Below, in pieces: positions 948-1,060 of a stretch of DNA of 8,426 nucleotides (the stretch's first letter is position 1; each line of letters opens with the position of its first letter). Below the pieces are notes generated by a model. That model searched no databases. It had not been told where the DNA came from and saw only the letters and a list, made by a program, of their open reading frames with translations. The stretch is from Acidothermaceae bacterium (lineage in GTDB: Bacteria > Actinomycetota > Actinomycetes > Acidothermales > Acidothermaceae). The stretch spans positions 1 through 8,426 of the forward strand of contig JAICLV010000109.1 in the NCBI GenBank assembly GCA_025925185.1. The letters run 5' to 3'. Both the position numbers and the translations under genes were made by a program.

Positions 948-1034
948 CTCCTCGGGATTCGCGGGACGGGCGAAACGGCCGGCACGCAGCACTCCCGCGA
1001 CGAGGAGACCGGCCTTTAGAGGGTCTCGCCGCGG
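948..1034 (-). promoter_or_regulatory. Leucine-responsive translational attenuator in the leuA 5' region
   Basis: Three blocks on the minus strand can pair in two exclusive ways. Anti-sequester stem: leader codons 9-13 (1034-1022) pair with 1010-995 by 6 bp (GAGACC/GGTCTC), a 3-nt bulge, then 7 bp including one G-U, around an 11-nt loop that holds the leader stop codon. Sequester stem: 1007-993 pairs with 966-948 by 7 bp (CTCCTCG/CGAGGAG) and 8 bp (TCGCGGGA/TCCCGCGA) with a 4-nt bulge, burying the leuA Shine-Dalgarno (953-948). Inferred logic: with enough leucine the ribosome reaches the leader stop, covers the first block, and the sequester forms. When it stalls at Leu codons 5-7 the anti-sequester forms and leuA is translated. 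No T-run follows, so control would be of translation rather than termination. A third possible stem, GGCCGG 1014-1009 with CCGGCC 982-977, competes with the anti-sequester. Confidence 0.72.
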
Positions 1035-1060
1035 CAGCTAAGGAGCAGGTTGCGCAACAT
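1016..1060 (-). CDS. leuL: leuA leader peptide, 14 residues
   Basis: The small frame encodes [14 protein letters not shown] and then TAA. Five of 14 codons are leucine: TTG at 2, three different codons in a row (CTG, CTC, CTT) at 5-7, and CTC at 14. Such peptides act by being translated, as sensors of charged tRNA-Leu, rather than as proteins. The stop lies in the loop of the anti-sequester hairpin and 73 nt before the leuA start. No Shine-Dalgarno precedes it; the ATG sits 8 nt after a -10 box, so it is probably translated from a leaderless transcript. The Leu run, the matching hairpins and the neighbouring leucine gene support each other. The symbol is used by analogy with other leu leader peptides. 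Confidence 0.75.

Follow-up and report, generated by a model that had tools for sequence, protein, structure and literature searches.

Gene context and organization of the leader region

The DNA analysed here, referred to as the window, is a stretch of 8,426 nucleotides from an Acidothermaceae bacterium (contig JAICLV010000109.1). Its leuA gene, encoding 2-isopropylmalate synthase, occupies positions 134–942 of the minus strand and begins with a GTG codon at 942. The product contains a Pfam HMGL-like domain (residues 44–269), and among the matches listed the nearest leuA proteins are those of genome G005 (91% identical over residues 5–271), an Acidothermus MAG (84–86%) and genome G006 (83%); by these identities the window is very probably from an Acidothermaceae-like actinobacterium. 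The frame is the true one to approximately residue 270 and then enters a fold-back copy. Specifically, positions 1–139 are a 78% inverted copy of 142–280, the last ~28 residues of the ORF are leuA read backwards, and we regard 1–280 as a fold-back or chimeric contig end. The neighbouring genes at 1144–8156 encode, according to Pfam, a two-domain GNAT acetyltransferase (plus strand), an Era-like GTPase with a KH domain, an HD-domain protein, a glyoxalase-like protein, a CNNM/CBS/CorC protein and YbeY.

Ahead of leuA, a leader ORF of 14 codons (1016–1060, minus strand) runs from ATG at 1060 to TAA at 1016 and carries the leucine codons CTG-CTC-CTT at 1048–1040, as a preliminary description of this DNA had indicated. 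A −10-like hexamer, TATAGT (1069–1074, minus strand), lies 8 nt upstream of the leader ATG and suggests that transcription is leaderless, beginning at this codon or adjacent to it; a promoter scan returned no full sigma-70 match at the window's leader. Leaderless transcription has been reported for the S. lividans leuA leader (accessible text of PMC8079986), and the ribosome-protected uORF described upstream of leuA in M. abscessus (accessible text of PMC4974804) supports translation of such leaders. An N-terminal extension of leuA through the leader was considered and rejected: this frame is open in 29 of 103 sequences including the window, and the sole in-frame upstream start within 66 codons is a TTG at 1137.

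Four helices can be drawn in this region, all on the minus strand. Stem P1 joins a 5′ arm made of leader codons 9–13 (CCGCGGCGAGACC, 1022–1034) to a 3′ arm (GGTCTCCTCGTCGCGG, 995–1010), and the resulting 13 bp with a 3-nt bulge (1034–1022 with 1010–995), enclosing the leader stop in its loop, agree with the first stem of the preliminary description. Directly 3′ of the stop, GGCCGGT (1008–1014) pairs with GCCGGCC (977–983) to form a pseudoknot helix (1014–1008 with 983–977). The last three bases of its 5′ strand overlap the top of P1, so a full P1 leaves four pseudoknot pairs. The leuA Shine-Dalgarno, GAGGAG at 954–949 upstream of the GTG, is covered by either of two further stems. The segment GAGGAGCAG (946–954) holds the Shine-Dalgarno and forms the 3′ strand of a base stem, S0, in which the leader's own Leu codons are the 5′ strand (1048–1040 with 954–946, 9 bp). 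In S2, a 5′ strand at 993–1007 pairs with TCCCGCGA-ATCC-CGAGGAG at 949–967 (1007–993 with 967–960 and 955–949), giving the 15 bp and 4-nt bulge of the predicted second stem at its expected place. Since P1 and S2 share 1007–995, part of the middle block that had been assigned to both, they are indeed mutually exclusive; what this two-stem account lacked was the pseudoknot helix and S0. The absence of a T-run had been taken to place control at translation, and with 0 terminator-like sites in 880–1180 translation is the likelier level.

Whether this architecture belongs to a described class had been left open. Judged by its sequence features, it is the LEU element, a family known ahead of actinobacterial leuA genes and described in 2005 by Seliverstov, Putzer, Gelfand and Lyubetsky (PMC1262725), of which the window holds a new member.

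Occurrence ahead of leuA

Relatives were drawn from a set of 110 leuA loci, comprising the best 80 of 591 from one scan, 29 from searches of relatives, and the window, and a script recognized the leader form in 105 of these 110. Of the remainder, L041 has 18 nt of upstream sequence, L095 has a leader with a single CTT, L110 and L112 have short leaders ending LLLTRP that fall outside the pattern, and L096 is a leuA copy without the element. At L044 and L058 leaders are present and the leuA start was missed by the script, leaving 103 sequences in the structure counts; a 54-sequence alignment was thinned from these by hand. A class-wide draw of 98 genomes, which has at least 30 genomes in common with the 110-locus set, yielded 89 with a leuA match of E ≤1e-40, and 88 of these were examined (in G080 the gene lies too near a contig end).

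The element was found in 88 of the 88 class genomes examined, in 85 at the first-listed leuA locus and in three at another copy. Detection required at least 9 of 10 P1 pairs, Leu, Met, Val or Ile at a fixed codon, and a nearby stop, a rule that admits G023 and G084, whose Leu runs are interrupted. By the same rule, 0 of 140 control windows and 2 of 99 antisense regions were positive, neither of the latter with CTT. The promoter-like site recurs as well: 98 of 105 loci have TANNNT at 4–11 nt ahead of the leader start, compared with 16 of 2,625 background positions, and it also precedes the leader in 75 of the 88 class genomes. Rfam 15 gave no match at gathering score for the window or for the loci of 8 relatives, and none for 880–1144 at E up to 10.

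Conservation and covariation of the helices

With respect to P1, 23 of 1,000 shuffles of the window do as well when this stem is taken singly, and the 54-sequence alignment has it paired in 98.0% of 540 cells with 20 two-sided changes, compared with 4.7 in shuffles. The first three pairs are invariant in this alignment, and class-wide some pairs exchange among G-C, C-G, A-U and U-A. Leader residue 11 varies among Gly, Asp and Ser, with the opposite P1 arm changing to match. The leaders of L110, L112, L171, L185 and L190 terminate within the P1 5′ arm, with LLLTRP, LLLSRP or LLLSCP as their last residues, and several of the P1 pairs at these loci have been exchanged for other standard ones. On these comparisons, P1 is a conserved, covarying helix. 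The idea that a U is retained in its 3′ arm for pairing with the Shine-Dalgarno was dropped, as the class-wide count opposite G is 12 U versus 23 C.

The pseudoknot helix is paired in 77.5% of cells of the same alignment, with a covariation score that 1 of 500 shuffles attained. Its best form takes 39 distinct versions among 103 sequences, of which a few probably arose by chance, and helices of at least 6 bp are present in 80 of the 88 class genomes. A score of at least 18 was reached by 51 of 85 own partners, 133 of 850 shuffled and 246 of 832 swapped ones, so that the own partner beats both. When partners were swapped among 78 thinned sequences, mean z values were −0.58 for P1 and −0.49 for the pseudoknot, and −0.26 and −0.16 for two control pairs. 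Taken together, the aligned relatives indicate that the pseudoknot helix covaries.

The stems that cover the Shine-Dalgarno behave differently. S0 is likewise 9 bp long in L084 and L086, and 70.8% of 466 cells are paired across the 54 sequences, with no covariation above shuffles in that alignment. Its own partner was better than swapped ones in 71% of the 78 thinned sequences (mean z −0.40, se 0.11), which places it barely above the control pairs. A separate proposal, that S0 is optimized by the choice of Leu codons, gained no support (mean z −0.13).

When the Shine-Dalgarno is kept constant, S2 of the window is equalled by 38 of 1,000 shuffles; for the three closest relatives, where S2 forms persist, the corresponding numbers are 183, 269 and 150 of 1,000. 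Covariation of S2 in the 54-sequence alignment is not above control, and its swap values (−0.26 to −0.29) are no better than those of the control pairs. Retention differs along the stem: its seven pairs beside the Shine-Dalgarno survive in 73.5% of cells, a frequency close to that of S0, compared with 40.3% for the seven outer pairs. The covariation, swap and shuffle tests give S2 no support beyond the window, and the idea that it is a conserved switch was rejected. It may be a genuine addition in this lineage, or mostly a side effect of the CCTC within one P1 arm. The expectation that relatives would show compensating changes in both stems together with a kept Leu run holds for P1 and for the Leu run and fails for S2, which is not supported as a general design.

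Rare codons in the leader

The Leu codon two before the P1 Arg is CTT in 100 of 103 sequences, compared with 22 of 1,823 Leu codons of the same leuA genes. Class-wide, 78 of 88 genomes have CTT as the Leu codon closest to P1 and the others have CTC, and CTT accounts for 38 of 986 leuA Leu codons (3.9%). A role of this CTT in S0 pairing was considered and rejected. When CTT was replaced by CTC in silico, S0 lost no strength in 89 of 100 sequences and weakened in 11, such that S0 pairing fails to explain the T of CTT; the P1 pair count dropped in 2 of 100. Rare Leu codons are also used by the Salmonella leu leader, which serves as a precedent. In the literature that we found on LEU-type leaders, a rare-codon bias in leuA leaders is not described.

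Related leaders share the preference. In L117–L131 the leader reads MRAVRLLLS(E/G/K)P(R/H), matching the published leuS leader peptide, and leuS-type leaders, with genes called by leader peptide only, carry CTT-CTG-CTT in 15 of 16 Streptomyces-type genomes, G044 being without an exact match.

A version of the element ahead of leuB

A covariance model of the element run on 22 genomes placed every match of E <1e-6 at a leuA copy or at leuB, with extra matches ahead of leuB in two genomes. This search for further targets of the scaffold scored at most 150 first-look candidates per genome and also yielded nine weaker matches (E 0.003–0.05). Among the 98 class-draw genomes leuB is present in 95, and of 69 loci examined 12 have the scaffold ahead of it at E 0.0021 or better (L226, L230, L233, L234, L241, L244, L245, L246, L251, L254, L274 and L287). 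A thirteenth match, L239 (E 0.069), lies on the strand opposite its leuB and was left out of the count.

All 12 leuB versions retain 10 of 10 P1 pairs and a helix of 6–12 bp at the pseudoknot place, which was matched by 0.2–5.2% of shuffles in eleven and by 10.6% in one. TANNNT precedes 11 of the 12 leaders, and the element lies 141–642 nt from leuB. In L233, L244 and L246 a conserved ORF of 32–41 residues ending MDRRDNGGETGH begins directly after the element, ahead of leuB. The leaders themselves encode Val/Ile/Leu runs such as VLVLI, ILVVV and LLVIV, and in this their codons follow the pathway. Counting genes over the available leuB sequence only, and with the L234 leader begun too late by the script, GTA makes up 10 of 17 Val codons in leaders versus 6 of 386 in genes, ATT 5 of 12 Ile codons versus 4 of 140, and CTT 8 of 17 Leu codons versus 6 of 334. 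The leuB versions amount to a natural codon-swap experiment. No paper on a leuB leader emerged from a literature search whose coverage left most subscription journals outside.

Folding models and proposed mechanism

The total fold of the window region is no better than that of shuffles (MFE z = 0.04), so whole-region fold energy was dropped as evidence and the element was judged by its relatives. The fold models described below, for the window and for 83 sequences, omit the pseudoknot. Without a ribosome, the stablest state of the window combines S0 and P1 (−59.1 kcal/mol); the S2 state, at −51.5 kcal/mol, is 7.6 kcal/mol worse, and P1 with an open Shine-Dalgarno is at −45.8 kcal/mol. The unpaired value of the Shine-Dalgarno, 0.02 without a ribosome, rises in the window model to 0.47–0.48 with codon 5 in the A site, 0.40–0.48 with codon 6 and 0.14–0.47 with codon 7 (CTT), and is 0.00–0.11 with the ribosome at the leader stop (12 footprints throughout). 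Some opening is also predicted beyond the Leu codons, with values of up to 0.40 at codon 8 and up to 0.32 at codon 13 for certain footprints. The model of the window therefore predicts greatest opening with the ribosome on the Leu codons, and it reproduces the earlier proposal that a ribosome at the stop breaks the first stem, with the second then hiding the Shine-Dalgarno. Across the 83 sequences the mean unpaired value is 0.23 when free of ribosomes, 0.30–0.31 on the Leu codons, 0.30 one codon past the Leu run and 0.17 seven codons later. Most sequences change little; of changes >0.1 on the Leu codons, 27–28 are upward and 5–9 downward (28 and 9 at CTT).

These models and the conserved features lead us to propose that the LEU element probably acts in cis to attenuate translation of leuA, and that its Leu codons would serve as sensor and lock alike. 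By sequence comparison, the leader, P1, the pseudoknot and the codon choice are conserved, with P1 and the pseudoknot covarying; the effect of ribosome position is a model prediction, and the switch in vivo is our inference. The transcript would start, leaderless, at the leader ATG, as the −10-like hexamer suggests. While the leader carries no ribosome, S0 would form between the Leu codons and the Shine-Dalgarno, enclosing P1 and the pseudoknot, and leuA would be shut. When charged Leu-tRNA is short, a ribosome would stall on CTG-CTC-CTT, the rare CUU ending 5 nt before P1. This ribosome would occupy the S0 strand and leave P1 and the pseudoknot folded, so that neither S0 nor S2 could form and leuA would be translated. 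With ample leucine, the ribosome would reach the stop in the P1 loop and open P1 and the pseudoknot, freeing the Leu codons and the P1 3′ arm, such that S0, joined by S2 in this lineage, would close the Shine-Dalgarno again.

More tentatively, the LEU pseudoknot could be a sensor platform that can be refitted: a leaderless leader places rare synonymous codons (CUU at leuA; GUA, AUU and CUU at leuB) just ahead of the pseudoknot, and decoding of minor codons, as opposed to Leu codons in general, sets the switch, with the same Leu codons doubling as the anti-Shine-Dalgarno at leuA. We consider this broader reading possible, though somewhat doubtful as a whole. It bears on results from S. coelicolor that, as related in the accessible text of PMC1262725, are hard to square with simple attenuation: leuA leader mutations had some effect, inconsistent with classical attenuation (Craster et al. 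1999), and according to another sentence mutations of the Leu codons had no influence on regulation. Were these codons the lock as well as the sensor, a mutation in them would abolish both functions at once, a possible explanation of the mutant results.

Other explanations account for parts of the data. The 2005 authors proposed a protein regulator, ML1624 orthologues with a DEAD-box helicase domain (PMC1262725), on the basis, in the accessible text, of co-occurrence and the cited mutant data. The LEU pseudoknot would then be its binding site and the leader ORF secondary, and the invariance of the first three P1 pairs in the 54-sequence alignment fits such a site. A binding site does not, however, predict a leader kept in all 88 genomes examined, rare codons within it or their replacement by Val/Ile/Leu codons where the scaffold precedes leuB. 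Nor do P1 and the pseudoknot keep a fixed sequence, their changes being compensatory; we judge this account quite improbable. Stalling might instead act on the mRNA, with ribosome position setting Rho-dependent termination or decay in the leader. Rho was suggested for mycobacterial cys leaders that lack terminators (PMC1262725), and the window leader too has no intrinsic terminator. Yet Rho control needs neither the enclosure of the Shine-Dalgarno in S0 or S2 that the window model predicts nor the S0 pairing in 70.8% of cells among the 54 relatives, and we find it unlikely.

The design first proposed for this DNA, with exclusive P1 and S2, S2 as the main sequester and S0 irrelevant, draws on real features, in that the DNA contains both stems, the window model has S2 forming with a ribosome at the stop, versions of it remain in the three nearest relatives, and its Shine-Dalgarno-side pairs are kept about as well as S0. 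Against it, S2 is without covariation and fares no better with its own partner than control pairs do, its outer seven pairs are poorly kept, shuffles are as good in 15–27% of cases in the three relatives, and S0 is the better stem without a ribosome. There is thus little likelihood that this exact design operates, and attenuation through S0 remains our preferred reading.

LeuA catalyses the committed step of leucine synthesis, and the element is present ahead of leuA throughout the class genomes examined. The mechanism was left open in the 2005 description (PMC1262725), and Rfam 15, judged by the window and 8 relatives, holds no model for the family. The proposed attenuator makes separable predictions, with synonymous CUU-to-CUG changes addressing the sensor and compensated changes in S0 addressing the lock.

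Comparison with known systems

The window agrees with the LEU element (PMC1262725) in its actinobacterial leuA downstream, its Leu-run leader, its two-helix pseudoknot, its base stem between Leu codons and Shine-Dalgarno, and the lack of any mention of a terminator, the helices being compared by text description as opposed to base by base. The MFE fold of the window, a base stem with inner hairpins, was set against the same text. The published text contains no leaderless start, rare-codon bias or leuB version. LeuL1 of S. lividans, as described in the accessible text of PMC8079986, is likewise leaderless, located ahead of leuA and without a typical intrinsic terminator, and has four Leu codons in its run where the window has three. 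Corynebacterium leuA leaders appear in the available portions of PMC4046766 and PMC5784534, and the term leuA is absent from the main text, as far as accessible, of PMC4833913 and PMC10272879. Leaders with similar amino-acid runs occur in the Streptomyces leuS genes (PMC1262725), which also share CTT (15 of 15 exact matches), and in the Corynebacterium ilvB-II motif (accessible text of PMC10272879), but both are followed by terminators. Unlike these classical Leu/Ilv transcription attenuators, the window leader has no terminator and carries a pseudoknot instead.
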